Shown: positions 2,243 to 30,432 of the stretch, one piece after another
How positions within the stretch are numbered: position 1 is the first letter of the stretch
How the letters are laid out: every line of letters starts with the position of its first letter
Source: Halorubrum sp. Hd13
Lineage (GTDB): Archaea; Halobacteriota; Halobacteria; Halobacteriales; Haloferacaceae
Direction: 5' to 3'
DNA: 64,000 nucleotides
Assembly: GCF_002252755.1 (NCBI RefSeq)
Contig: NZ_NHOY01000067.1
Coordinates: 1 to 64,000, forward strand
Translations under genes and position numbers: made by a program
Notes under the pieces: model-generated
The model's database searches: none
Seen by the model: the letters and a program-made list of their open reading frames with translations, nothing else
Told to the model about the DNA's origin: nothing

Positions 2243-3352
2243 TCACCCCCCGTCGGGGTCGTAGATATCGGGGTCCTGCTCGCCCTGCACCTCGAGCACG
2301 CCGAGGAGTCCCTTGCGGGCCACGCGGGTCAGCGAGTGGTCGACGATCTTGATCGGACCGGGGACGGGGGTCCTGATCTCCGCGGCGGTGACGGTGCCGG
2401 GCGCGACCGGCGTCGTCTCGACGTAGCGCGCGGGGTCCGAGACGAGGTCTCCGTCGCGGTAGAGCTTGTCCCAGACGTTGCCGATGGCGTGCCACGAGCT
2501 GCTCAGGTTCGGCCCGCCGTTGGACAGGAAGAGCCGGACGCGCTCGTCCTGCTCGACCTGGACCCGGCCGTATCCGTCCTTCGTGAACGCGTACGCCTCG
2601 CCGTTGAACGCCATGTAGGTCGGGTCCTCCTCCTTGGCGGCGTCTACGCTCCACTCGTGGTGGCCTTCTTGACCGGTCTCCCCGTTCGTGTACAGCTCGT
2701 GCTGGCCGAAGTAGAGCTCGCGGTCGACTTCCGGAAGCCCGTCTTTCGGCTCGACGAGGATGGCGCCGAACATGCCGGCGCTGATGTGGTGGTCCATGTT
2801 CGGGACCGCACAGTGGTAGATGTGGACGCCGGGGTAGGTGGCTTTGTACCGGATGCTGGCCTCCTCGCCGGGCGCGATGGTGGTGTGGTCCGCGCCGCCG
2901 CCGGGCCCGTACACCGCGTGGAAGTCCATGTTGTGCGGCAGCCCGCTGTCCTCGGGGTTCTTCAGGGTGAAATTCACCGTGTCGCCGCGGCGGACGCGGA
3001 CCATCGGGCCGGGCACCCGCCCGTCGAAGGTCATGTAGTCGAAGGTGACGCCGGGCTCGATCTCGGCGGTCACCTCCTGCGTCTCCATCGTCACCTCGTG
3101 CGTGCGCGGCTCGTCCCAGTCGACGGGGTCGGGCACGTCGGTCGGATCCGCGGCGATGCGGTCCGCGTCGACCTCTGCGGCCGGATCGAGCGAGGCCGAC
3201 TCGCCCGCCGGGTCCGCATCGGCCGCGTCGTTCGTGGGCGGCGCGATGGCGTCGGTATCGCCGCCACCGAGGCAGCCCGCGAACACGGCCGCGGCGCCGA
3301 TACCCGCCGTCTTCAGAAACGCACGCCGGTCGGTGTGGGAATGTCGGGACAT
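2243..3352 (-). CDS. nirK: Copper-containing nitrite reductase NirK
   Basis: A two-cupredoxin-domain enzyme of 369 residues reducing nitrite to nitric oxide outside the cytoplasmic membrane. The N-terminus has a Tat motif (DRRAFLK, about 9-15) and a lipobox-like FAGC (Cys27), suggesting Tat export and lipid anchoring. Type 1 copper ligands are His140, Cys181, His189 and Met194. Type 2 ligands are His145, His180 and His288 (SSSWHAIG). The catalytic Asp is in PHNMDFHA (Asp143). Residue spacing follows known NirK proteins except for one residue fewer between Cys181 and His189. Start ATG 3352 precedes the Tat motif directly. It lies next to an HTH-10 regulator, a copper ATPase and a putative NO reductase cluster, which fits a denitrification function. 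Confidence 0.96.
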   Translation of the reverse strand: MSRHSHTDRRAFLKTAGIGAAAVFAGCLGGGDTDAIAPPTNDAADADPAGESASLDPAAEVDADRIAADPTDVPDPVDWDEPRTHEVTMETQEVTAEIEPGVTFDYMTFDGRVPGPMVRVRRGDTVNFTLKNPEDSGLPHNMDFHAVYGPGGGADHTTIAPGEEASIRYKATYPGVHIYHCAVPNMDHHISAGMFGAILVEPKDGLPEVDRELYFGQHELYTNGETGQEGHHEWSVDAAKEEDPTYMAFNGEAYAFTKDGYGRVQVEQDERVRLFLSNGGPNLSSSWHAIGNVWDKLYRDGDLVSDPARYVETTPVAPGTVTAAEIRTPVPGPIKIVDHSLTRVARKGLLGVLEVQGEQDPDIYDPDGG

Positions 3353-3605: not shown

Positions 3606-4268
3606 TCACCGCGTCGCCGCTTCGTCGTCGTCGATCTGCGGGGGTAGGTCCTCGATGAGCCGCCTGACCGCGACCTCCTCGGCGCGGTGGAGCGCCTCGC
3701 TGCAGGTGGACGTCGCGAGCCCGACGCGGTCGGCCAGCTCGGTGAGCGAGCAGGTCCGCGGCGTGTCGTAGTACCCCTCCTCTATCGCGCGGAGGAGCAG
3801 CTCCTGCTGGGTCTCGGTCAGCAGCCGACTCGCCTGTGGCCGCTCCCTGACGTGCTTGACGCGGAAGTCGAGCCCGAGTTCGCCGAACTGCCGGCCCAGC
3901 TCCGAGATCCGGTCGGTGGCTCCGGTGATGTCGACGACCGCGTCGCCGTCGCTGATCTCGACCGGCATCTCGATGGGGATTCCGGACCGCTTCGCCGCGA
4001 GAAGCAGCAACGGCGCCGAGGTCTCGAACTGCACCGTCGCCTCGTTGTCGGCTTGGTTCATCACCGTCGCTTCGGTGATCGACGGGTGCGACTCCATGGC
4101 GTCGAGGACTGCCTCGACGTCAGGGGCGGTTATCCACACGAGCGCGAACCCCGGACCCTCGCCCGGGAGCGCGGCGATCACCCGCAGCGTCGCTTCCGGG
4201 AACGCGCGGGAGACGTCTGCGGCCCACGGTCCATCGGGCAGTTCGACGACGAGGCGTGCTTGTGCCAT
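3606..4268 (-). CDS. HTH-10 (bacterio-opsin activator type) transcription regulator
   Basis: A protein of 220 residues. The N-terminal half (about 1-145) is a haloarchaeal sensor-like region without recognisable ligand residues. The C-terminus (about 150-205) is the PF04967 bat-type helix-turn-helix: LLTETQQELLLRAIEEGYYD, a TCSLTELADRVGLATSTCSEALHRAEE helix pair, then an acidic tail. These proteins bind DNA and often control neighbouring respiratory genes. It is transcribed in the same direction as nirK, about 250 nt upstream, and divergent from a copper ATPase gene. That makes nirK, the NO reductase cluster and the ATPase likely targets; this is inference from position only. Confidence 0.85.
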   Translation of the reverse strand: MAQARLVVELPDGPWAADVSRAFPEATLRVIAALPGEGPGFALVWITAPDVEAVLDAMESHPSITEATVMNQADNEATVQFETSAPLLLLAAKRSGIPIEMPVEISDGDAVVDITGATDRISELGRQFGELGLDFRVKHVRERPQASRLLTETQQELLLRAIEEGYYDTPRTCSLTELADRVGLATSTCSEALHRAEEVAVRRLIEDLPPQIDDDEAATR

Positions 4269-4685
4269 TGGTCTTCTCGGTGGGTGATTCCGGGTCGGTG
4301 GTGAGGCGGTCCGGCCGAAGACAACCGGACGCGACTTCCGGGGGGTCGGATCGCGTCACGGACGCGGAAGCGACCGGTTCCCCTCCGACCGCCGCGACGC
4401 GAGTGTGACGCGTCGTCAGTCGATCCCGCATCGGCCGTCGTCGGACGACTGTACGTACGACTCGGGTGAAAAGGGGATATCGGGCGTTCTTGAGGCGTGG
4501 TACCGTCGACCGAATTGTTCGGCCGTCTCTTTATCCCCCGCATCGGCGCGGCCCGACCTCGTCCCCGCGGCCCCCTCGTCGGACCGGACGACGATCGGAA
4601 CGGTATCGCGTTCGTCCGCTTCGCCGGCTTCGACCCGAACACGTTCGCGGACACTGACTCCCGCGTCGGCGAGCGAGTTCCGGTG
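4269..4685. promoter_or_regulatory. Divergent intergenic region between regulator and copper ATPase
   Basis: About 420 bases without a gene. It holds a GTACGTAC palindrome near 4450 and a TATA-like CTTTATC at about 4530 facing the ATPase. That box would give a leader of more than 100 nt if it is the true promoter. Confidence 0.35.
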
Positions 4686-7199
4686 ATGGGACGCTGTCGG
4701 CTCTGTGACCTCCCGACCTCGGACCCGCCCGTCAGCGCGGCCGGCGTCGACGGCGAGTTCTGCTGCCGCGGCTGTCTGGAGGTGGCCCGCCGGCTCGACG
4801 ACGTCGACGACGCCGAGACGGAGACGGACGGGATCGGGGACGCACCGACGGAGCGAGACCGAGCGACGACCGAGGGGACGTACCCGTCGGGGGCGAGCGA
4901 GGCGTATCTGGCGGTCGACGGGATGCACTGTACGACCTGCGAGACGTTCCTCGGACTCCGCGGCGACGACCGCCGGGGGGTCCACGCGGTGGAGGCCAAC
5001 TACGGCACCGAGACCGCCCGGGTCGTCTACGATCCGGAGGCGATCGACCGGGAAGAGCTCCCGGCGGCGCTCTCGGGGTACGGGTACGCGCTCCGGTTCC
5101 GCGAGGGGACGCCGACGGAGGGAGGGGCCGAGACGCACGCCGCCGACGGTCCGGCGGGGGGCCGTCCGGACGACCGGACGGTCGAGCGGCTCGCGGTCGG
5201 CGGGTTCCTCACGATGCTGATCATGCCGTGGTACGTCCTGTCGCTGTACCCGAGCTACCTCGGCGTGGAGACGAACGTCCTCGCCATCGACACGACCACG
5301 TCGGTGGGCCGGTACCTCCCGCTGGCGTTCATCGCGGTCCTGACGACCGTCCTGTTGGCGTCCACGGGCGCGCCGCTCCTGCGGGGCGCGTACGTGAGCG
5401 TCCGGGCGCGGCGACCCAACATGGACCTCCTCGTCGCGGTCGCCGCGCTGTCCGCGTACGCGTACAGCACGCTGACGCTCGCGACCGGCGGCACGCACCT
5501 CTACTACGACGTCACGGTCGCCGTCGTGATGGTCGTCTCGGTCGGCCGGTACTACGAGCGGCGGGTCCGATCGCGGGCGAACGACCTGCTCGAGACCGTC
5601 ACGGCCGCCCGCGTCGAGTCGGCGACGCGGCTGACCGACGCGGGATCGGAGACCGTCCCGATCGCAGACCTGGAACCGGGCGACCGAGTCCGGGTCGCGC
5701 CAGGCGAGCGCGTGCCGATCGACGGCACCGTGACCGAGGGGACCGTCGACGTCGACGAGTCCGTGATCACCGGGGAGTCGCTCCCGGTGCGGAAGGAGCC
5801 CGGGGATCCCGTGATCGGCGGCGCGACTCTCCTCGGTGACGTCGGCGACGGGCGCGGTCCCGACGGCGCGGTCGTGATGCGAGTCGGCGAGGACGCGGAG
5901 AGCACCGCGGACCGCCTCGCCGCCGCCCTCTGGGAGGTTCAGACCGACGCGCCGGGTGTCCAGCGGTTCGTCGACGCGCTCGCGACGATATTCGTTCCGA
6001 CCGTGTTAACGCTCGGGCTGCTCGTCGCCGGCTGGGGGCTCGCGACCGGCGAGACGGTCGCGGCCGCGATGCTCGCCGGCCTGACCGTCCTCGTCGTCTC
6101 CTGTCCGTGCGCCATGGGGCTCGCGACCCCGCTCGCGGTCTCCGGCGGGCTCCGCGACGCGCTCGCTCGCGGCGTGGTCGTCACCGATTCGTCGGTGTTC
6201 GAAGTCGCCCGAGAGGCCGAGACGATCGTGTTCGACAAGACCGGGACCCTCACCGCGGGGGAGATGCGCGTCGCCGCCACGTACGGCGACGACCGGACGC
6301 TTCGGCTCGCCGCCGCGCTCGAGCGCCGCGCCGACCATCCCGTCGCGGACGCGATCCGCGATGCGGCGACCGATGATCGGCTCCCGATCGAGGACGGACC
6401 GCTGACCGACGGCGGCCTCGAGGGGACGACGGTCGAGTCGTTCGCCCGCCACCCCGGTGCGGGGATCTCGGGCGAAGTCGTCGCCGGCGACGGCCGCGCG
6501 TCCGACCGCCGAACGACCGGCACGCGAGTCGTCGCCGGGACCCTCGATCTGGTCGAGCGCGAGTGCGGTCCCGCCTCCGACGACCTGCGGGACCGCGTCG
6601 ATGTCGTCGCGGATCGGGGCGCGCTGCCGGTCGCCGTGGGATGGAACGGCGCGGCTCGCGGGGTGATCGCCGTCGAGGACCGCGACCGGGAGGGCTGGGA
6701 CGAGGCGCTCGCGGCGTTCGCAGACAGGGAGGTGGTCGTCCTGACCGGCGACGACGGTCCGCGGGCCGACCGGTTCCGAAACCACCATGCGGTGGACGAG
6801 GTCTTCGCCGGCGTCCCGCCGGACGGGAAACTCGAGGCCGTCCGCGGATTCACCGCCGCCGGCACTACCGTGATGGTCGGCGACGGGACGAACGACGCGC
6901 CGGCGCTCGCGGCGGCCGATCTCGGTATCGCGATGGGCGACGGGACGGCCCGCGCCGTCGAGGCCGCGGACGCCGTGATAACCGGCGAGGACCTGCGCGC
7001 GGTCGAGACCGTCTTCGCCCTCGCGGCCGGGACCCGCCGACGGATCCGGGAGAACGTGGCGTGGGCGCTGTGTTACAACGCGGTGGCCGTCCCGCTCGCG
7101 ATCGCGGGGGTGCTCAACCCCTTCTTCGCCGCCCTCGCGATGGCCGCCAGCAGCGGGATCGTCGTGACGAACTCGACGCGGTCGGTGCTGCGGGAGTGA
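4686..7199 (+). CDS. copA: Heavy-metal (copper) P1B-type ATPase, FixI/CcoI-like
   Basis: An ATP-driven copper exporter of 837 residues in the cytoplasmic membrane. The N-terminus has a cysteine-rich module (CRLC at 4-7, FCCRGC at 25-30) like the metal-binding domain (PF12156) of the FixI/CcoI ATPases that supply copper to heme-copper oxidases. An HMA domain follows with GMHCTTC (Cys82, Cys85). Catalytic hallmarks are the membrane CPC motif at 473-475, the phosphorylation site DKTGTLT (Asp517), the HP pair at 551-552 and the hinge GDGTNDAP from 732. Start ATG 4686 gives the family N-terminus; upstream in-frame starts add 63 unrelated residues. It is convergent with the NO reductase cluster and near nirK. 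This suggests it loads copper for those enzymes rather than serving only detoxification. Confidence 0.92.
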   Translation: MGRCRLCDLPTSDPPVSAAGVDGEFCCRGCLEVARRLDDVDDAETETDGIGDAPTERDRATTEGTYPSGASEAYLAVDGMHCTTCETFLGLRGDDRRGVHAVEANYGTETARVVYDPEAIDREELPAALSGYGYALRFREGTPTEGGAETHAADGPAGGRPDDRTVERLAVGGFLTMLIMPWYVLSLYPSYLGVETNVLAIDTTTSVGRYLPLAFIAVLTTVLLASTGAPLLRGAYVSVRARRPNMDLLVAVAALSAYAYSTLTLATGGTHLYYDVTVAVVMVVSVGRYYERRVRSRANDLLETVTAARVESATRLTDAGSETVPIADLEPGDRVRVAPGERVPIDGTVTEGTVDVDESVITGESLPVRKEPGDPVIGGATLLGDVGDGRGPDGAVVMRVGEDAESTADRLAAALWEVQTDAPGVQRFVDALATIFVPTVLTLGLLVAGWGLATGETVAAAMLAGLTVLVVSCPCAMGLATPLAVSGGLRDALARGVVVTDSSVFEVAREAETIVFDKTGTLTAGEMRVAATYGDDRTLRLAAALERRADHPVADAIRDAATDDRLPIEDGPLTDGGLEGTTVESFARHPGAGISGEVVAGDGRASDRRTTGTRVVAGTLDLVERECGPASDDLRDRVDVVADRGALPVAVGWNGAARGVIAVEDRDREGWDEALAAFADREVVVLTGDDGPRADRFRNHHAVDEVFAGVPPDGKLEAVRGFTAAGTTVMVGDGTNDAPALAAADLGIAMGDGTARAVEAADAVITGEDLRAVETVFALAAGTRRRIRENVAWALCYNAVAVPLAIAGVLNPFFAALAMAASSGIVVTNSTRSVLRE

Positions 7200-7210
7200 C
7201 GACGCCCCCG

Positions 7211-7900
7211 TCAGACCGTCCGGATGAACCGGCGGAGGGTCTCGCCGTTCGAGTCGCGGAGTTCGATCACGAACTGCGCCCCTGAGGGCCCGTCGGAAAG
7301 CGCGGCGCGGGGCGCCGAAACCGCGTACGGCGGCTCGTCGCTGCGGTCGATCTCTTCGCCGCCGGCGAGGAGCACGACGTGGTCGACGCCATCGGACGCC
7401 TCGAGCTCGCAGGTGATCGGGTCGCCGTCGGTCTCACAGACCAGCTCCGCGGTCACGTCACCGCCGTCGGCTCCGAAGCCGGACGAGAAGTCGAGCAGCA
7501 TCACGCCCGGCCCGAGGGTTCCCACGACCGCGACGATCACGAGGAACGTCGCGAAGTTGATCTTCGACCCGTGGCGGACGATCCGTCGCACGGTCGGGTT
7601 CTCGGCGGTGCGCCGCAGGCGGATCACGGCCGGAACGACGAGCACGTGGGTGAGCGGTCCCCACGCGATCAGGACGAAGCCGTAGGCGATCGCGTACCGA
7701 AGCGCGGTCGCGTCTATCCAGTACGCCGTCAGGACGTTCCCACCCATCCACAGGAAGAGCCCGAGGAAGACGAGCGCGCCGCTCTTGAGCCAGCGCCAGA
7801 CGGGCGTGTTCGCGTAGTAGACGCTCAGGAGGTCACGCCATGCTTGACGAACGATACCGCCGAGCCGCATTCGTGAATTTGTCTTCGAAGCGTCAGTCAT
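7211..7900 (-). CDS. Membrane protein at the end of the NO reductase cluster
   Basis: A protein of 229 residues that I do not recognise as a named family. It has about three or four hydrophobic segments: two near 40-90 (FLGLFLWMGGNVLTAYWIDA and the following helix) and one near 118-140 (FATFLVIVAVVGTLGPGVML). A C-terminal acidic domain follows, of beta-sheet type with two cysteines (VCETDGDPITCEL). The C-terminal domain resembles an extracellular Ig-like fold bearing a possible disulfide. It lies about 120 bases downstream of subunit I in the same direction, so it may be an accessory subunit or assembly factor of that enzyme. Start ATG 7900 is the first in frame. Confidence 0.6.
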   Translation of the reverse strand: MTDASKTNSRMRLGGIVRQAWRDLLSVYYANTPVWRWLKSGALVFLGLFLWMGGNVLTAYWIDATALRYAIAYGFVLIAWGPLTHVLVVPAVIRLRRTAENPTVRRIVRHGSKINFATFLVIVAVVGTLGPGVMLLDFSSGFGADGGDVTAELVCETDGDPITCELEASDGVDHVVLLAGGEEIDRSDEPPYAVSAPRAALSDGPSGAQFVIELRDSNGETLRRFIRTV

Positions 7901-8017
7901 TCGTTTAGTTTCGTATCAGTGGTCGGTCGTCGGTCGTCGGTTCGGGTAGTCGCCCGCCGCGGGTCGGAAAACCGGAGCGATGAGCGCTCCGCGGGCCGGT
8001 TGGACGTCGGCCGGCGC

Positions 8018-9742
8018 CTACGCGCCGATCGCCCACAGCTGGGTCAGCAGGTACCAGTTCAGCACGTAGACCGCGGCGAAGACGCCGAGGAAGATCAGAC
8101 AGAGCGTGAACGTCCCGCGGAGCTCGACCGCGTGGATCGCCTCACCGCCGTCGGCGTGGAGTCCCCCCTCGGGGAGCATGCCGCCGTCGTCGCCGGCGGC
8201 GAGCCGGTCGCCGAACAGCAGCGAGCCGACCGAGACGCCGACGAACAGGACGCCGGAGAGGATCGCCAACAGCGCGAACAGCCCGAAGATCATGAATATC
8301 GGGATCGCCGCCGAGAAGCTGAACTCCGAGCCGGGGATGTTCCGGACCACCTCTGCGGTCCGGCGCGGGACGCCGTAGAGGATCCCCGCGTACATCAGCA
8401 TCAGCGTGGCGACGCTCATCGCGGCCCCGTAGGCGTACGGGATCGCGCTCGCGAGGGTGTCCGAGACGAAGTCCCGGCGGAACATCGTCTTGATGACGAA
8501 GAGGACGAGTCCGAAGAACGCGAGCGTCGTCCCGAGAGCGACGGTGGCGTGGAAGTGCCCCACCGTCGCGAGGGTGTTGTGCCAGGTCATGTTCACCTGA
8601 ATCTGGCCCATCACGACGCCGGTGATCCCGCCGAGGAAGCCGAAGAGGATGATGCTGAAGATCGTCGAGGCGAAGACGGGGTTCCGCCACGGCGCGGACG
8701 TGAGCCACCCGAAGAGCCCGCCGCCCTGTCCTCGCCGCCGGCGCCCGGCCTCGATCCCGGCCGGGATCGCGAACGCGTGGATCATGCTCGCGAAGGCCGC
8801 GCCGTAGAAGGCGTAGGAGGTGTTCCAGATGCGCCAGCCGGCGGACATGCCGGGGTCGACGAGGAGGTGGTGAGCCGCCCCGAGATTGATGAAGAAGAGG
8901 TAGAGGATGAACGCGGTCCGCGAGACCTTCTCGGAGATCACGACGGCGCCCCCCACGACGTGAGTGAGGAAGTACCACACCGTGATCATCGCGAGCAGGT
9001 TGATCTGCTGGGTCCCGTGGCCGACGATCCAGTAGAGCTGGCGGTAGATCGCCGGGTCCACGGTGGCGATGAGATCGACCCGCCAGGCGAGTGCGTACGC
9101 GAACGCGGCGATGCCGCCGAGGATCGCCTCCACGGCGATGATCCCGGTGATGAACGCGCCGAAGGCGACCAGCGGGAGCGTCCGGCTGCTGTCGCGGGTC
9201 TCCGTCCAGATCGTCGCGAAGAACGGGAGCGCCGCGATCGTCGCCCCGAGCAGGAAGAGGATCGCCGTGCCGTAGAACCACGGCGAGACGGGAAGCGGGA
9301 CGTACGCCGTCAGCAGCGGCGCCTCGTTCGGCGCCTCGGACAGCCAGATGGACGCGTTCACACCGATCGCGCCGACCACCATCGTGACCCAGCCGAGGGT
9401 CGCGAGCGGGCGCAGCGGGAGCTTCCGGCCGAGCACCATCGGACCGCCGACGTAGAGGACGGCGATCTCCATGAACACCATCCAGAAGATGAGCAGGTTC
9501 CACGCGTGCATGCTCAGGTGGGTGTAGTAGCTGCTCGCGTCGAGCAGGCCGACGAACTCCCACCGAGTCATCGCGACGGAGAAGGCGAAGCTCCCGCCGA
9601 CCGCGAGCGCGATCACCGCGGTCAGTCCGAACAGCTTCACGTAGTTCTCCACGCTCCGGTGGACGTCGAGTCCGGTCACCGAACACGCGCGGAACCCGTC
9701 CGCGCCGTAGTCGTTCCGAAACAGCGAGGCGATCGCCGACAT
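8018..9742 (-). CDS. Heme-copper oxidoreductase subunit I, probable NO reductase of the B-family-like group
   Basis: An integral membrane catalytic subunit of 574 residues with about 13-14 helices. Low-spin heme ligands are His79 (THLSMHAW; His75 is nearby) and His398. The high-spin heme ligand is His396 (GHFHATVA). CuB ligands are His242 and the His291-His292 pair (AAHHLL). In oxygen reductases helix VI reads GHPxVY, the Tyr being cross-linked to the CuB His. Here it reads GHGTQQIN, so Gln246 takes the Tyr position and Pro is Gly. Loss of that Tyr is typical of NO reductases. The overall form is B-family-like rather than cNOR/qNOR. Its gene starts 1 base after the subunit II stop. I infer NO to N2O reduction; automated annotation would probably say cytochrome c oxidase. 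Confidence 0.85.
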   Translation of the reverse strand: MSAIASLFRNDYGADGFRACSVTGLDVHRSVENYVKLFGLTAVIALAVGGSFAFSVAMTRWEFVGLLDASSYYTHLSMHAWNLLIFWMVFMEIAVLYVGGPMVLGRKLPLRPLATLGWVTMVVGAIGVNASIWLSEAPNEAPLLTAYVPLPVSPWFYGTAILFLLGATIAALPFFATIWTETRDSSRTLPLVAFGAFITGIIAVEAILGGIAAFAYALAWRVDLIATVDPAIYRQLYWIVGHGTQQINLLAMITVWYFLTHVVGGAVVISEKVSRTAFILYLFFINLGAAHHLLVDPGMSAGWRIWNTSYAFYGAAFASMIHAFAIPAGIEAGRRRRGQGGGLFGWLTSAPWRNPVFASTIFSIILFGFLGGITGVVMGQIQVNMTWHNTLATVGHFHATVALGTTLAFFGLVLFVIKTMFRRDFVSDTLASAIPYAYGAAMSVATLMLMYAGILYGVPRRTAEVVRNIPGSEFSFSAAIPIFMIFGLFALLAILSGVLFVGVSVGSLLFGDRLAAGDDGGMLPEGGLHADGGEAIHAVELRGTFTLCLIFLGVFAAVYVLNWYLLTQLWAIGA

Positions 9743-9743
9743 G

Positions 9744-10286
9744 TTACCCCTCCACCACCGTGAAGCGGCCGTGCATCGTCCGGTGGCCCTGTCCGCAGAA
9801 CTCGTTACAGACGACGTGGTAGGTGCCCGGCTCGTCGAACGTCATCGGGATCACCCACTCGGAGCCCGGGAACACCTGGAGGTTGATCTGTTTGTTCAGG
9901 TTCTCCTCGGGCCTGACCGAGAAGCCGTGCTGGACGTCGTAGGCGCCGAGGTGGATGTCGTACTCGCGGCCCGCTTCGAGCACGACCGGGAGGCCGTCCC
10001 AGTTGAACCGCATCGCGCCGACGTACACGTCGTCGTCGGGCGGAACCAGTCCGTCCTCGGTCTCCTCGGCGGACTCCTTGTACTCGCCGACGCGCTCCTG
10101 GTACTGGTCGGGATCGACGTCGTACGTCGTCCCGATGGGGTTCTGGTCACCGAACTGCGTGAACCCGGCCATCCAGGTGAAGATGCCGAGCGACCACGCG
10201 CCCGCAAGCCCGAGCCAGATGCTCTCGCGGCGATTCACCGGTGAGTTCCACCAGTCGTCTTCGGGGTCTTCGAGCGGGTTGCTCAC
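9744..10286 (-). CDS. Heme-copper oxidoreductase subunit II with CuA site
   Basis: A protein of 180 residues: one N-terminal helix (about 20-40), then an exported cupredoxin domain. The CuA site is complete, with the His of DVQHGFSV followed by CNEFCGQGHRTM (Cys-x3-Cys-x3-His-x2-Met). It would accept electrons from a small copper protein or cytochrome and pass them to subunit I. I chose GTG 10286 (SNPLEDPEDDWW) because the Shine-Dalgarno-like GAGGTGATC lies just upstream, in the 3' end of the small upstream gene; another in-frame start adds 15 residues. The next gene, subunit I, follows 1 base after the stop, so the two are one transcription unit. Confidence 0.9.
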   Translation of the reverse strand: MSNPLEDPEDDWWNSPVNRRESIWLGLAGAWSLGIFTWMAGFTQFGDQNPIGTTYDVDPDQYQERVGEYKESAEETEDGLVPPDDDVYVGAMRFNWDGLPVVLEAGREYDIHLGAYDVQHGFSVRPEENLNKQINLQVFPGSEWVIPMTFDEPGTYHVVCNEFCGQGHRTMHGRFTVVEG

Positions 10287-10291
10287 GGGGA

Positions 10292-10447
10292 TCACCTCAC
10301 CGGCAGCGACAGGATGTCGAGCAAGCCCCATCCGACGTAGGCCACGAGAAAGAACAGTATCGCCGCCGCGGCCAACAGCCAGATACGGTTATAGAGACGT
10401 TGCATCGCTGGAACTTCTCCGTCATCGCGTGTTGTCCGGTTGCTCAT
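10292..10447 (-). CDS. Small single-helix subunit upstream of subunit II (51 residues)
   Basis: A short ORF of 51 residues beginning MSNRTTRDDGEVPAMQ. It has one clear transmembrane helix (about 21-45, IWLLAAAAILFFLVAYVGWG) and a short tail LLDILSLPVR. Size, topology and position match the small subunits (IIa or CbaD/CbaE type) that accompany ba3-like heme-copper enzymes. Its stop is 5 bases before the subunit II start, and the ribosome site of subunit II lies in its last codons, which supports translation. A TATA-like GTATCTAAC sits about 20-25 nt before its ATG. An inner Met at position 15 is an alternative start. Confidence 0.7.
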   Translation of the reverse strand: MSNRTTRDDGEVPAMQRLYNRIWLLAAAAILFFLVAYVGWGLLDILSLPVR

Positions 10448-10519
10448 CGATCGCTCACAGGTTAGATACACGGATACTCATGGTGAGCGTTGTCGCGCAC
10501 ATGTTCGCCCGCGGCGGTT

Positions 10520-11908
10520 TCACATCGCGAGCGTTTCCGCGAGGATGGCCGCGAGGACGGCCCCGAGGTAGGCGTTCGAGGCGTGGAAGCTCCTGTAGGC
10601 GGCGGCCGCCGCGTCGTCGGAATCCCCTCGGCCGGCGTCGTACTGTCGGACGACGCTCCGCACGAAGAGGGCTCCGAGCGCCGTCGTCGTGACCGCGTAG
10701 AGGACGCCGAAGTCGCTGACGGCTCCCAACAGGACCGCGGCGATCAGCGTGACGCCGAGCCACGCGAGTATGCGTCGCCGCGCGGTCTCGATCCCCGCGA
10801 CGACCGGTAACATCGGGTAGTCTGCCCGCGCGTAGTCCTCGCGGTGGGCGATCGCGAGGTTGTAGAAGTGCGCGGGGGTCCAACAGCAGACGACGACCGC
10901 GAGCAGGACCGCAGGGAGGCCGACGGTCCCCGTCACCGCGGCGTACCCGATCAGGGCCGGCAGGGCGCCGGATCCCCCGCCGATAACGGTGTTCCACCGC
11001 GTGGTCGGCTTCAACAGGACCGTGTAGACGTACGCGTAGTAGACGACCGCCGCGGCCGTGAGCGCGGCCGCGAGCGCGTTGACGAACGCGAACAGGATCG
11101 CCATCGAGGCGACGACGAGCGCGGCGGCGAATGCGATCGCCCGTCGGACGCCGACCCGATCGGTCGCGATCGGCCGGTCGGCGGTCCGGCGCATCTTGCG
11201 ATCGCGGTCGCGCTCGTACACGTGGTTGAACGTTCCCGACGCCCCGGTCGCGAGGACGCCGCCCGCGAGCGTCGCGACGACGGTAACGCCGTCGAGCTCG
11301 GCGCCGGCCGCGACGGCCAGTCCCATCCCCGCCAGCGCGAGCAGGCACAGCAGCCACATCAGCCGCGGCTTGGTCAACTCGAGATACGCCCGAAGTCGGT
11401 CGCCGACGGAGGGCGCGTCGCGCTCTGCCGTCGCGGGGGGCGCGTCGAGCTCGGGCGGTTCTGTGGGCGCGCCGCCCTCGGAGACGCCCGGTGGCTGTCG
11501 GTCGCCCGAGTTCCCCCGAGAGCCGGCGGTGGCCGGGTCCCTCGCCGTCGCCTCCACCCGGGTCACGAGCGTCGCGAGGAGGACGGCGAACACCCCGATC
11601 CCGCCCAACAGGTGGAGTCCGCCCTCGAACGGGAGGACGCCGGTTCGCCCCGCGAGCCCGACGGCCGCCTGTCCCGCGTACGCGAGCAGGACCGCGATCG
11701 TTCCGACGCGGACGCCGCGAGAGGCCGCCGTTCGGTGGGCGACGAGCGCCGTGACGCCGAGCAGGACGCCGACGGCCACCGCCGTGGCGTGATGGATCGC
11801 GGCGACCGCCGCACCGACGTCCGCGGCGGCGGTCGCACCCAGCGCGACGAGCAGATACGTCCCCACGACCGACCAGATCAACAGCCTCGTGAGCCGCGGC
11901 GGATCCAT
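10520..11908 (-). CDS. ctaB: Protoheme IX farnesyltransferase (heme o synthase) with N-terminal half-CtaA-like domain
   Basis: A membrane protein of about 462 residues. The C-terminal two thirds is a UbiA-type prenyltransferase with both Asp-rich motifs, NHVYERDRDRKMRRTADRP and YNLAIAHREDYARADYP. It converts heme b to heme o. The N-terminal four helices (about 1-125) resemble one half of heme A synthase CtaA/Cox15, with His residues in AAIHHATA and GGLHLLGG at positions like the CtaA heme ligands. A linker rich in Gly, Pro and Glu joins the two. Start ATG 11908 (MDPPRLTRLL) is chosen by domain content. An upstream ATG at 12070 has a TATA box 28 nt before it, so a longer form with a basic 54-residue extension is possible. 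It heads the NO reductase cluster. Confidence 0.88.
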   Translation of the reverse strand: MDPPRLTRLLIWSVVGTYLLVALGATAAADVGAAVAAIHHATAVAVGVLLGVTALVAHRTAASRGVRVGTIAVLLAYAGQAAVGLAGRTGVLPFEGGLHLLGGIGVFAVLLATLVTRVEATARDPATAGSRGNSGDRQPPGVSEGGAPTEPPELDAPPATAERDAPSVGDRLRAYLELTKPRLMWLLCLLALAGMGLAVAAGAELDGVTVVATLAGGVLATGASGTFNHVYERDRDRKMRRTADRPIATDRVGVRRAIAFAAALVVASMAILFAFVNALAAALTAAAVVYYAYVYTVLLKPTTRWNTVIGGGSGALPALIGYAAVTGTVGLPAVLLAVVVCCWTPAHFYNLAIAHREDYARADYPMLPVVAGIETARRRILAWLGVTLIAAVLLGAVSDFGVLYAVTTTALGALFVRSVVRQYDAGRGDSDDAAAAAYRSFHASNAYLGAVLAAILAETLAM

Positions 11909-12087
11909 ACGGCCAGTCCGCGTCCGACCCCCGCGTCTCTTGCCCCGAACATATTCGGAGGCGTCTGGCGACATTCGCACACGAGCGTTCTCCTCCGACG
12001 CTGTCGCCGGCCTCGCCGTCGAGGGCACACGCGGACGCCCCGCGAGGTCGTTGCCCCGTGCGTCCGTCATCGATCCAGATATATCTG

Positions 12088-25639: not shown

Positions 25640-27151
25640 ATGTCACGACAGACAGGCGCAGTCGGTCGGTCGCCAGTCGTCCGCATGGCGACGAGCGACG
25701 GCGAGGACGCGGTGGCCGCGGCTCGTGCGGCGTCGGAGTCGGTCGCGGTCGTCCGGACGGGACCGACTGGAATCGGCGAGAGCGACCCGCTGGTCATGGC
25801 GACCGTCGACGGCAGGACGGCGTTCTTCGCCGGTCCCACGGACGCGGGCGTCGAGGACGTCGTCTCGACGGTGGCCGGCGGCGAACTGCCGACCGACGGA
25901 GCGGACACCGTCATCGAACACGAGCCCGGAACGGAGACGCTCCCGGTTCCGGATGCCGGGTCGCTCTCCGTCGGCCGGCGGGCGGTGCTCGGGCCGTGCG
26001 GCTGGGTCGACCCGCTGGACCCGACCGAGCGGCCGTTTCTCTCGGCCGAACGGTCCGCCGAGGCGCCCGCCGACGCCGGACTGCTCGGCCGCGGACGCGG
26101 TGACGCGGCGGCCGACGACCCGGTCGCAACGGAGTGGACGACGGCCCGGGAGGCGGACGGCGACCCGGTCGTGGTCGCAAACGCGAACGAGGCTTATGCC
26201 GAGCAGCGCGCCGACCGGACGCTCCTGTGGGGGGTGCCGATGTGCGTCCTCGACGGGATGGCCGCGGTCGCCGACCGCGTCGGCGCCGACGACGCCGTCC
26301 TCTACCTGAACGAGTCCGACGTCGCCCTCGTGCGACACCTCCGCGAGGCCGTCGACGCCGCTAGCGAGCACCTCGACCTCGACGTGCAACTGGTCGCGGG
26401 ACCGGACGAGCACCGCGCGGGGGCGCCGACGGCGGCGCTGGAGGCGATGGAGGGCGCCGACCGCATCGAGCCACGGCTCCAGCCGCCCTCACCCGCCGAG
26501 CACGGCCTCTACGGCCGGCCGACGGTCGTCCACACGCCACGGACATACGCGCAGGTTCGGCACGCGATGGCCGAGCCGGACGCCTTCGACCCCGGGGCCG
26601 CGGACCCCGGGACCCGGCTGTTCACCGTGACGGGCGACGTCGCGGCCCCGGCGACGGTCGAACTGCCCTCCGCGAGTTCGCTCGCGGCGGTCCGCGAGGC
26701 CGTCGACCTCGAGGGGGCGTTCAAGATGGCCTGCGTCGGCGACGTGCTCGGCGGCTACACCCGTGACCTCGATGTGAGGGCGACGGCGGGGTCGCTCCGG
26801 GCGGCGGACCTCGGGACCGGGGGGGTCGTCGAGTTGCTGGACGAGAGCCGGTGTGCCCTGGCCGACGCCGGCGACCGCGCGACGTTCGCCGCCAGCGAGA
26901 ACAGCGGGCGCTGCGTCCCCGGTCGCGAGGGAACCAAGCAGCTGGCCGAACTGCTGCGGGACGTCTACGACGGCGACTTCGAGGACGAGAAGATACGCGA
27001 GCTGGGGCGGGTGATGCGCCGGTCGAGTAACTGCCGGACCGGCGCGCACGCGCCACGGCCCGTGACGACCGTCATCGAGAGCTTCGGGCCGGAGGTGCGC
27101 GCCCACGCTGACGGCCGCTGTCCGGCCGGGAGTTGCACGGGGGAACTGTGA
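25640..27151 (+). CDS. NuoF-like subunit of formate dehydrogenase, lacking FMN and Fe-S motifs
   Basis: A protein of 503 residues aligned by me with the NADH-binding 51-kDa subunit (NuoF/HoxF/FdhB type). The N-terminus resembles the thioredoxin-like part and the FMN/NAD region follows. In normal NuoF the motif GRGGAGFPTGxKW binds FMN; here the segment from about 148 reads GLLGRGRGDAAADD. NADEGEPGTFKDR has become NANEAYAEQRADR. The C-terminal [4Fe-4S] motif SxxCGxCxPCR is SENSGRCVPGREG, leaving Cys425. The fourth cysteine region keeps Cys465 (SSNCRTGAHAPRPV). It is probably a structural or redirected partner of FdhA, with which it overlaps by 4 bases (GTGA). Start ATG 25640. Confidence 0.75.
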   Translation: MSRQTGAVGRSPVVRMATSDGEDAVAAARAASESVAVVRTGPTGIGESDPLVMATVDGRTAFFAGPTDAGVEDVVSTVAGGELPTDGADTVIEHEPGTETLPVPDAGSLSVGRRAVLGPCGWVDPLDPTERPFLSAERSAEAPADAGLLGRGRGDAAADDPVATEWTTAREADGDPVVVANANEAYAEQRADRTLLWGVPMCVLDGMAAVADRVGADDAVLYLNESDVALVRHLREAVDAASEHLDLDVQLVAGPDEHRAGAPTAALEAMEGADRIEPRLQPPSPAEHGLYGRPTVVHTPRTYAQVRHAMAEPDAFDPGAADPGTRLFTVTGDVAAPATVELPSASSLAAVREAVDLEGAFKMACVGDVLGGYTRDLDVRATAGSLRAADLGTGGVVELLDESRCALADAGDRATFAASENSGRCVPGREGTKQLAELLRDVYDGDFEDEKIRELGRVMRRSSNCRTGAHAPRPVTTVIESFGPEVRAHADGRCPAGSCTGEL

Positions 27152-30100
27152 GCACCGACGACGCGCTCCCCGGCGTGCCTGACTTCGAGGACCCCCAACC
27201 CTCGACGCCGGTCACCGCCGAGTTCGACACCGGCACCGCCAACGATCCGGAGGTCGGGACCGACGAGGGACCGACGACCGTGACCGTCGACGGCGAGCCG
27301 GTGACGCTGCCCGGCGGATCGACGCTCATCGATGCGATGGAGGCGCTGGACGACGACGTCGTCAGCGTCGACCCCGGTGCCGACGGCGTCTCCGAGGACG
27401 CCGACGTGCCCGCACTCTGCTACTACGACCGCGACGGGGACTGCAGCGGGGAGATCGGTCCGCGTAGCGAGTGCCGGACCTGTATGGTCGAGACCGACGA
27501 GCACGGCCTCGTGCCGTCGTGTTCGTTCCCGGCCGAGGACGGCCTCGAGGTCCGGACCGACACGCCCGACGCCGCGGAGGCCCGCAGCGTCAACCTCGAC
27601 CTGGTGCTGTCGAACCACAATCTCCGGTGTACGACCTGCAACGGCAACGGACGCTGCGAACTGCAGGACGCCGCCATCAGCGAGGGCGTCGACCACCCCC
27701 GGTACGGCGTCTTCGACGAGCGGGACGCGTACGAGCCCATCGACGACACCTCGTCGTTCATCCAGATCGACCGCAACAAGTGCATCCTCTGTAACCGGTG
27801 CGTCGAGGGGTGTAGCGACGTCCAGGTCGAGGGCGTCCTCCGTATCGAGGGCCACGGTGAGGACACCCGCATCGGCTTCCAGTCGGACGCCGAGACGATG
27901 CACGACTCCGACTGCGTCTCCTGTGGCCACTGTGCGACGGTGTGCCCGACGGGCGCGCTGACCGAGAAGGGCATCGGCGGCGTCGCGACCCTGCCGCTGC
28001 CGGGGTTCACCCAGCGCAACTCCATCGGCAAGGTCATCGAACACGAAGACGTCGAGACAATCGACGAGACGGACGCGCCGAACCGGACGTTCGGCGGGAC
28101 CGCCGAGGTCGAGGCCGATGGGCTGGAGGGGTTCGTGTCCGCGGCCAAGCGCCGCGCCGGCGACGTGGCCACGGAGTACGGTCACAAGGCGTTCCTGGCC
28201 GGCGAGCACACTGCCGAGAGCATCGCCGCAAACACCCTCCCGGAGGGCCGGTTGTTCGACATCGCCGGCGTGGTCAGCGACTACCGGATCGGCAAAATCG
28301 ACAAGCAAGAGACGACCTGCGGCTTCTGTGCGGTCGGCTGCCGGTTCGAGATGTGGGGCAAGGACGGCGACTCGCTGGGCGTCGTCCCGGTGGACGACCC
28401 CGACGACGCGCCGGCGAACAACTTCTCGACCTGTGTGAAGGGGAAGTTCGGCCACGAGTTCGCCAACAGCGAAAAGCGGCTGACGGAGCCGCTCGTCCGC
28501 GACGACGACGGCGAGTTCGAGGCCGTCTCTTGGGCGGAGGCTCTCGATCACGTCGCCGACCGGCTGTCGAGCATCCAGGCGGAGGCTGGCGTCGACTCGG
28601 TCGGCTGTCTAGCCTCCTCGAAGGGGTCCAACGAGGAGGCCTACCTCGTCCAGAAGTTCGCCCGCCAGGTGCTCGGGACGAAGAACATCGACAACTGCGC
28701 GCGGCTCTGTCACTCCTCGACGGTGGCGGCGCTCCAGCAGACCGTCGGCTACGGCGCGATGACGAACCGGATCAACGAGGACGTCGGCGAGGCCGACGCC
28801 TACCTCATCAGCGGCTCGAACACGACCGAGTCCCACCCGGTGCTGGCGACCCGAATCAAGCAGAACGTCCGGGACGGCGCCGACTTGGTCGTCTTCGACC
28901 CGCGGAGGATCGGCATCGCCGAGCACGCCGACCAGTACACCCGCACCAACCCCGGCTACGACGTCGCTTGGCTCAACGGGATGATGCGGTACATCGTCGA
29001 GAACGGCCTCCACGACGAGGCGTTCGTCGAGCGCAACACGAAGAATTTCGATGCGCTGAAAGAGAAGGTCCAGGCGTTCACCCCCGAGAAGGTCGAGGAG
29101 CTGGCGGGCGTCCCGCCGGAGGAGCTGGCCTCGGCCGCCGAGACGCTCGCGGCGGCCGACACCGTCGTTTTCGGCTGGGCGATGGGGATGACACAGCAGT
29201 CCCACGGCACCGAGAACCTGCTGGCGATGGCGGACCTGGCGCTCCTGCTCGGTCAGCTCGGCAAGCCCGGTGCCGGTCTCTCTCCCTTCCGCGGCCAGAA
29301 CAACGTTCAGGGCGGCGGCGGCGACATGGGGACGCTACCGGGCAGCCTGCCGGGCTATCAGGACCCCGTCGACGACGAGGTCGGCGAGAAGTTCGCAGAC
29401 GCGTGGGGCGAACGCCCGCCCGAGGAGCCCGGCCTCAAGGTGCCCGAGATGCTCGCTGAGGCCCACGAGGGCAACCTGAAAGCGATGTATGTGGTCGGCG
29501 AGAACCCGGCCCTCTCGGAGCCGGACATCCAGCACGCCGAAGCGGCGCTGGACGACCTCGGGTTCCTCGTCGTCCAGGACATCTTCATGACCGAGACGGC
29601 CGACCACGCCGACGTGGTGCTGCCGGCGGCGACCTCGCCGGAGAAGCACGGCACCTTCACCAACACCGAGCGGCGCATCCAGCGGGTCCGGCCGACGGCC
29701 GACCCGCCGGGGGAGGCGCGGCAGGACTGGGAGATAACCCAGGCGCTGGCCCGCCGGCTCGGCTACGACTGGGACTACGACCACCCGCGGGAGGTGATGG
29801 ACGAGATAAGCGACCTGACGCCCATCTACGGCGGCGTCTCCTACGAGCGGCTCGAGGGCGGCGACGTGCACGGCCTGCAGTGGCCCTGCACCGACGCCGA
29901 CGACCCCGGCACGCCGTACCTCTACGACCACGAGGAGGGGAACTTCAACTTCGAGGACGGGAAAGCCCGGTTCGTGCCCGCCGACGGCGGCCATCCGGGC
30001 GAGATACCCGACGAGGAGTACCCGCTCACGCTCACCTCGGGCCGCGTGCTTTACCACTGGCACACCGGCCAGATCACCCGCCGCGTCGAGGGGCTGATGA

Positions 30101-30432
30101 GCCACGTCGGCGAGAGCTTCGTCGAGGTCAACCCCGAGACGGCCGACCAACTCGGCATCGGCGACGCGGAGTACGTCCGCGTCGAGTCCCGTCGCGGCTC
30201 CATCGTCGTCGAGACGCAGGTCACCACCCGCGTCGGTCCCGGGACGCTATTCATCCCGATGCACTTCGCCGCCGGCGCCGTCAACAAGCTGACCGGCGAG
30301 ACGTTCGACCCGACGGCCGGTATCCCGGAGTACAAGATCTCCAGCGTCCGCGTCGATCCGCTCGGCCCGGAGACCGACGAGACCGTGCTGCGCGCGCCCG
30401 GCGCCGGCCGGGGTCGCGCCGGCGACGACTGA
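27148..30432 (+). CDS. fdhA: Formate dehydrogenase alpha subunit (molybdopterin, NuoG-like N-terminus)
   Basis: A protein of 1094 residues oxidising formate to CO2. The N-terminal 250 residues hold a 2Fe-2S domain (Cys91, GDC, ECRTC), a His/Cys motif HNLRCTTCNGNGRC and two ferredoxin clusters (CILCNRCVEGC, CVSCGHCATVCPTG). The molybdenum domain starts with CGFCAVGC. Cys521 in CARLCHSSTVAAL is the expected Mo ligand, replacing selenocysteine of other enzymes, followed by the FDH-type His. GQNNVQGGGGDMG and the C-terminal molybdopterin-dinucleotide domain complete the chain. GTG 27148 is chosen for its GTGA overlap with the upstream gene. No Tat signal is visible, so it is cytoplasmic. It could dispose of formate made by Fhs. 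Confidence 0.94.
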   Translation: MSTDDALPGVPDFEDPQPSTPVTAEFDTGTANDPEVGTDEGPTTVTVDGEPVTLPGGSTLIDAMEALDDDVVSVDPGADGVSEDADVPALCYYDRDGDCSGEIGPRSECRTCMVETDEHGLVPSCSFPAEDGLEVRTDTPDAAEARSVNLDLVLSNHNLRCTTCNGNGRCELQDAAISEGVDHPRYGVFDERDAYEPIDDTSSFIQIDRNKCILCNRCVEGCSDVQVEGVLRIEGHGEDTRIGFQSDAETMHDSDCVSCGHCATVCPTGALTEKGIGGVATLPLPGFTQRNSIGKVIEHEDVETIDETDAPNRTFGGTAEVEADGLEGFVSAAKRRAGDVATEYGHKAFLAGEHTAESIAANTLPEGRLFDIAGVVSDYRIGKIDKQETTCGFCAVGCRFEMWGKDGDSLGVVPVDDPDDAPANNFSTCVKGKFGHEFANSEKRLTEPLVRDDDGEFEAVSWAEALDHVADRLSSIQAEAGVDSVGCLASSKGSNEEAYLVQKFARQVLGTKNIDNCARLCHSSTVAALQQTVGYGAMTNRINEDVGEADAYLISGSNTTESHPVLATRIKQNVRDGADLVVFDPRRIGIAEHADQYTRTNPGYDVAWLNGMMRYIVENGLHDEAFVERNTKNFDALKEKVQAFTPEKVEELAGVPPEELASAAETLAAADTVVFGWAMGMTQQSHGTENLLAMADLALLLGQLGKPGAGLSPFRGQNNVQGGGGDMGTLPGSLPGYQDPVDDEVGEKFADAWGERPPEEPGLKVPEMLAEAHEGNLKAMYVVGENPALSEPDIQHAEAALDDLGFLVVQDIFMTETADHADVVLPAATSPEKHGTFTNTERRIQRVRPTADPPGEARQDWEITQALARRLGYDWDYDHPREVMDEISDLTPIYGGVSYERLEGGDVHGLQWPCTDADDPGTPYLYDHEEGNFNFEDGKARFVPADGGHPGEIPDEEYPLTLTSGRVLYHWHTGQITRRVEGLMSHVGESFVEVNPETADQLGIGDAEYVRVESRRGSIVVETQVTTRVGPGTLFIPMHFAAGAVNKLTGETFDPTAGIPEYKISSVRVDPLGPETDETVLRAPGAGRGRAGDD

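Follow-up and report, generated by a model that had tools for sequence, protein, structure and literature searches.

We suggest that two adjacent genes of Halorubrum sp. Hd13 encode subunits I and II of a haloarchaeal NO reductase of the eNOR type, related to the B-family heme-copper oxidases. We give this reading a probability of about 0.88; the enzyme very probably turns NO into N2O. The eNOR family is already described, reportedly by Hemp and Gennis in 2008, and its characterisation is said to appear in work cited as Murali et al. 2024; what is new here are two partner proteins, evidence from promoters, and the distribution of the enzyme. Four NOR families have been characterised biochemically, eNOR among them (PMC11388526); the literature that we searched yielded no haloarchaeal eNOR that had been purified or assayed.

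The window, by which we mean the whole stretch of 64,000 nucleotides that was analysed, comes from contig C50 of a haloarchaeal draft genome of 3.81 Mb in 130 contigs. On the minus strand the genes follow one another, in the direction of transcription, as ctaB, a 51-aa ORF, subunit II, subunit I and ORF3 (Table 1), the 51-aa ORF directly upstream of subunit II having been absent from the first-pass annotation. Curated models recognise NirK, a heavy-metal/copper P-type ATPase and heme o synthase, so that the neighbours named at first were correctly identified, but nirK is not adjacent: it lies three genes past subunit I and, because the plus-strand ATPase stands in between, outside the transcription unit of subunit I. 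For subunit II, GTG 10286 is a more probable start than ATG 10331, and the starts of ctaB and copA were re-assigned to the ATGs given in the table because the upstream motif discussed below suits a later start in each. The expectation that such an enzyme would be misannotated as a cytochrome c oxidase was well founded, relatives being labelled 'cbb3-type cytochrome c oxidase subunit I'. Elsewhere in the window, a narG model matches weakly at 29539-29760 (+), inside an ORF (27133-30432) that is probably another molybdopterin oxidoreductase.

Table 1. Features of the putative eNOR locus and its surroundings, in window coordinates.
Feature	Position	Strand	Basis and remarks
NirK copper nitrite reductase, Tat-type leader (RRAFLK)	2243-3352	-	TIGR02376, 385.9 bits (cut-off 296.3)
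HTH_10 regulator (bacterio-opsin activator type), adjoins nirK	3606-4268	-	PF04967 above cut-off
Denitrification-type motif (CGAACACGTTCG, 1 mismatch)	4636-4647		38 bp upstream of copA ATG 4686
Copper-type P1B ATPase (copA)	4686-7199	+	TIGR01525 above cut-off, TIGR01511 slightly under; start moved to ATG 4686
ORF3, three predicted TM helices and C-terminal Ig-like beta domain	7211-7900	-	No Pfam family; predicted model
Subunit I (predicted eNOR catalytic subunit, heme/CuB)	8018-9742	-	PF00115, 172.7 bits; 574 aa; Gln246 at Tyr position
Subunit II (predicted eNOR subunit; one TM helix and CuA cupredoxin domain)	9744-10286	-	PF00116; ba3 subunit II by sequence, E 3e-15
Small subunit, 51 aa, single TM (MSNRTTRDDGEVPAMQRLYNRIWLLAAAAILFFLVAYVGWGLLDILSLPVR)	10292-10447	-	Read from sequence; position of ba3 subunit IIa
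Denitrification-type motif (CGAACATGTGCG, 1 mismatch)	10496-10507		48 bp upstream of small subunit
Heme o synthase (CtaB)	10520-11908	-	TIGR01473/NF003349 above cut-off; start moved to ATG 11908
Denitrification-type motif (exact)	11946-11957		37 bp upstream of ctaB ATG 11908

The active site carries much of the argument. Aligned to the ba3 oxidase of Thermus thermophilus, subunit I has H79 and H398 as ligands of the low-spin heme, H242, H291 and H292 as those of CuB and H396 as that of the high-spin heme, while Gln246, in the helix VI motif GHGTQQ, falls opposite Tyr237. The six histidines, together with Q245 and Q246, do not vary among 38 distinct haloarchaeal orthologues (59-100% identity), and helix VI of 83 bacterial relatives always reads GH[GS]xQQ (GHSSQQ in 78, GHGAQQ in 3, GHSTQQ and GHSAQQ in 1 each); an invariance of Gln245-Gln246 that spans archaea and bacteria means that the motif is not a chance occurrence. 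The complete set of heme and CuB histidines and the glutamine at the position of the active-site tyrosine, both claimed in the first-pass annotation, are thus borne out, as is the full CuA site of subunit II, whose H120, C160, C164, H168 and M171 are the same in all 31 sequences compared. GHPxVY, with the cross-linked tyrosine of B-family (ba3) O2 reductases, is absent and replaced by GHGTQQ; the helix VI glutamate that serves as FeB ligand in cNOR and qNOR (HxxxE) is absent, Gln246 standing at that position; and neither the Asn of sNOR and bNOR (CuANOR) nor the Asp of gNOR occurs at the tyrosine position in the 38 orthologues, all of which have Gln. The predicted model of subunit I (pLDDT 77, and around residues 380-395 too poor for a judgement of active-site geometry) confirms a ba3-like fold, its best PDB match being ba3 at a TM-score of 0.74-0.76. 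We also observed that two of 84 bacterial relatives, both on Thermus thermophilus plasmids (L060 and L062), have GHFK for GHFH on helix X, a change of the low-spin heme histidine to lysine that possibly gives an unusual heme ligand.

Two further proteins accompany subunits I and II. The 51-aa ORF occupies the place of ba3 subunit IIa (cbaD), and it is no isolated case: in 102 of the 112 loci compared, archaeal and bacterial, an ORF of 25-75 aa with one hydrophobic helix ends beside subunit II, and these ORFs have an L..Y..WG core in common. The PX1-3GT/A signature of ba3 subunit IIa (PMC3128077) is present in ba3-type control loci and absent from the small ORF, and comparison with solved structures and Pfam gave no meaningful match. 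ORF3 is found near subunit I in all 28 haloarchaeal loci fetched and in 70 of the 71 genomes that carry the enzyme, the exception (G034) being one whose subunit I match is itself cut short; only three non-carriers have it, as weak or broken matches. Among eNOR-less genomes, G036 contains a broken ORF3 fragment (G036:C2:672510-672878) that looks like the remnant of a lost cluster, others of its genus having both. ORF3 matched no Pfam or NCBIfam family and was not detected in the bacterial eNOR loci fetched. Its single-sequence model is confident only for the C-terminal beta domain, which has two conserved cysteines and gives weak, generic Ig-like fold matches. We infer that ORF3 is a dedicated partner of the haloarchaeal eNOR, be it a structural or donor-docking subunit or an assembly factor. 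No mention of either protein was found in the eNOR literature searched.

The promoters suggest that the cluster is regulated with denitrification. In Haloferax mediterranei the motif CGAAYATDKTYG is reported upstream of denitrification genes (nar, nirK, nor, nos; PMC11218638), and counting both strands the window holds nine sites at no more than one mismatch, against 2.9 expected. Three of these sites stand ahead of three transcription units, which begin with the small subunit, ctaB and copA (Table 1). It stands at a fixed distance before subunit II in 17 of 28 haloarchaeal loci (slot background 0.7%) and at the same place before ctaB in 10 of 15 loci and before copA in 13 of 19 (500-bp background 10%), frequencies that overstate the significance because related loci are not independent. 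Six of the 11 nirK genes tested, the one in the window included, have the motif upstream; the nirK promoter of the window gives no match even at two mismatches. By analogy with Haloferax mediterranei, where a similar regulator belongs to the nirK-nor cluster (PMC11218638), the HTH_10 gene beside nirK is a candidate regulator of the cluster.

Distribution ties the enzyme to nirK. It occurs in 71 of 391 Halobacteria genomes (~18%), and nirK is present in 67 of the 71 carriers versus 143 of the 320 non-carriers (Fisher p 5e-16, kinship ignored); within the genus of the window, the figures are 6/6 versus 7/40 (p 2e-4, kinship again ignored). On the other side, no nirK was seen within the fetched flanks of the 80 bacterial loci taken from a genome scan. 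By our searches, the 210 nirK-bearing genomes divide into 111 with qNOR only, 42 with both reductases, 25 with this enzyme only and 32 with neither, and among them the absence of qNOR goes with no more than a mild enrichment of the enzyme (odds ratio 0.48, p 0.03). The 32 nirK-bearing genomes, of the 391 examined, that match neither qNOR nor eNOR may have a further NO-removing system, or the searches may have missed one.

The Hd13 genome itself has a single match to qNOR (norB), a 302-aa open frame that begins at helix VI (L036:7681-8529, which is G000:C2:74680-75525), whereas the qNOR frames of nearly all other genomes listed are far longer, mostly 764-840 aa. A relative of the same genus has a 763-aa qNOR, 96% identical over the common part, the N-terminal 481 aa of which find no match in this genome. 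The truncation may be an assembly error at a junction. As the gene stands, the N-terminal half of the only qNOR is gone, which leaves the eNOR as the only full-length NOR found in the genome. nosZ is present, a narG-like gene matched weakly, and oxidases that retain the tyrosine, of the A-family and ba3 types, are available for O2.

These data bear on what the enzyme is for. As a variant compatible with our reading, its main task could be NO detoxification or redox balance under micro-oxic conditions instead of a respiratory step of denitrification. Three of the carriers that lack nirK at the threshold used keep qNOR and one is without both; 42 nirK-bearing genomes have both reductases; and eNOR is reported to reduce NO under micro-oxic conditions (PMC11388526). 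We nevertheless consider a mainly non-respiratory role unlikely, given nosZ and the narG-like gene in the same genome, the position of the enzyme as sole full-length NOR found there, and a motif that it has in common with the genes supplying copper and heme o and that suggests induced synthesis. What we favour, by a narrow measure, is a larger picture: a four-protein haloarchaeal eNOR, made up of subunit I, the CuA-bearing subunit II, a single-helix subunit common with bacteria that replaces IIa, and the haloarchaea-only ORF3, belonging to one low-oxygen regulon with the genes that export copper and provide heme o, and having replaced qNOR as the respiratory NOR in part of the class.

Relatives at 37-41% identity lie on plasmids of Thermus, Thermomicrobium and Defluviimonas, and a scan of GTDB genomes returned 468 relatives, of which 80 loci, mostly from Proteobacteria, were kept. 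A 66-row tree of subunit I, a quick search with SH-aLRT support only and some long branches, places the Gln enzymes of haloarchaea and bacteria together on a long stem (SH-aLRT 100), in a clade that includes Thermus and Thermomicrobium and excludes the Tyr-bearing enzymes, haloarchaeal ba3 as well as bacterial B-family; removing the helix VI motif does not alter the groups. The AU test rejects a topology in which the haloarchaeal Gln enzymes join haloarchaeal ba3 (p 5.7e-10), and tree and test together rule out an independent Tyr-to-Gln change within haloarchaeal ba3. Placement inside a clade of O2 reductases, the outcome named beforehand as speaking against the proposal, was looked for in both and not found, and with the Gln clade apart from ba3, the B-family-related NO reductase beside nirK put forward in the first-pass annotation is the best-supported reading. 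One sequence, on the Saprospiraceae MAG contig L092, nests beside a Hyphomicrobiaceae sequence, which reflects either recent transfer or a mis-binned contig.

A ba3-like O2 reductase, that is, a cytochrome c oxidase tolerating Gln at the tyrosine position, would account for the automated annotation, for T. thermophilus ba3 being the nearest solved structure by both fold and sequence, and for the complete CuA site, CtaB and conserved K-channel-like residues, all as in oxidases. Yet no member of the clade has the cross-linked tyrosine, the clade stands apart from the Tyr-bearing B-family enzymes, two Tyr-bearing oxidases are already in the genome, and the tie to nirK and to the denitrification motif is strong; we regard an O2 reductase as very improbable. 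The subclass of NO reductase, at first left open, can now be named. Natronomonas and other Halobacteria are among the published carriers of eNOR, which has the Gln, follows directly on a cupredoxin subunit II and is usually misannotated as cytochrome oxidase (PMC8756737). We file the enzyme as eNOR on these features, on its clade and on this published description, the tree having been built without the named R. marinus, Ardenticatena and Natronomonas eNOR sequences. That choice of references, and the haloarchaeal enzymes forming a subclade of their own (SH-aLRT 100) with a dedicated ORF3, would also suit another B-derived family (bNOR, sNOR, gNOR, nNOR or an unpublished haloarchaeal 'hNOR'), a reading that we find barely credible, since the published residues at the tyrosine position are Asn in sNOR and CuANOR, Asp in gNOR and Gln in eNOR alone (PMC8756737 Table A4) and the published eNOR tree includes a Halobacteria cluster (PMC8756737); no paper with both 'hNOR' and 'nitric oxide reductase' was found in the literature searched.

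We posit the following course for the reaction, in which we infer the donor, the chemistry, the proton path and the regulator. A one-electron donor, probably a blue copper protein of the halocyanin type, as haloarchaeal biology suggests, would reduce CuA in subunit II, an entry point that we read from the sequence; from CuA the low-spin heme would hand the electrons on to the high-spin heme/CuB site of subunit I, where two NO from the neighbouring NirK would be coupled to N2O. Gln246 stands in place of the tyrosine that serves O2 reductases as radical and electron donor in O-O cleavage, which is not needed for NO reduction. Synthesis would probably be induced together with that of other denitrification genes under low oxygen. 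Invariant Y257, S319 and H322 correspond to Tyr248, Ser309 and Thr312 of ba3, and Tyr244 is replaced by the non-polar I253, the four ba3 residues being K-channel positions. The K-channel-like path thus kept suggests that protons come from the cytoplasm and that the enzyme may conserve energy. As read from the sequence, it agrees with the single proton channel predicted for eNOR (PMC8756737) and says nothing on pumping.

Since the enzyme is found in 71 of 391 genomes, and in 25 of the 210 nirK-bearing genomes with no match to qNOR, surveys that count qNOR only or trust the annotation miss probable NO reducers, and would misjudge the N2O potential of hypersaline systems. N2O is a greenhouse gas and NO is toxic. 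qNOR has been called the only NOR class in haloarchaea (PMC8400030), a statement that the distribution of eNOR contradicts. ORF3 and the small subunit could be used as markers that tell the enzyme from true oxidases with no need to check a single residue. Outside the Archaea, strains of Thermus antranikianii with narG and nirK, in which norB was undetected, were scored as NO-reducing (PMC9270275 Table 2), and an undetected eNOR could explain that score.

Among known systems, the enzyme agrees with eNOR in the Gln at the tyrosine position, the full set of histidine ligands, the cupredoxin subunit II directly upstream, the cytochrome oxidase annotation and the occurrence in Natronomonas and other Halobacteria; nirK is near in the Halorubrum window as it is in Ardenticatena, where eNOR and NirK are in one operon (PMC4653789). 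The haloarchaeal branch differs in having ORF3, undetected in bacterial loci. With the ba3-type (B-family) cytochrome c oxidase it has in common the fold, the gene order of small subunit, II and I, CuA and the K-channel-like residues, and differs from it in the replacement of Tyr by Gln, in its separate clade and in a small subunit without the IIa signature (PMC3128077). qNOR (NorZ), the usual haloarchaeal NOR, has the same predicted reaction and the same partnership with nirK, but its helix VI bears His-x3-Glu, it lacks a CuA subunit, and in this genome it is truncated. The bNOR (CuANOR) of Bacillus is likewise a CuA-bearing NOR akin to the B-family oxidases, and is set apart by Asn, rather than Gln, at the tyrosine position (PMC8756737 Table A4).
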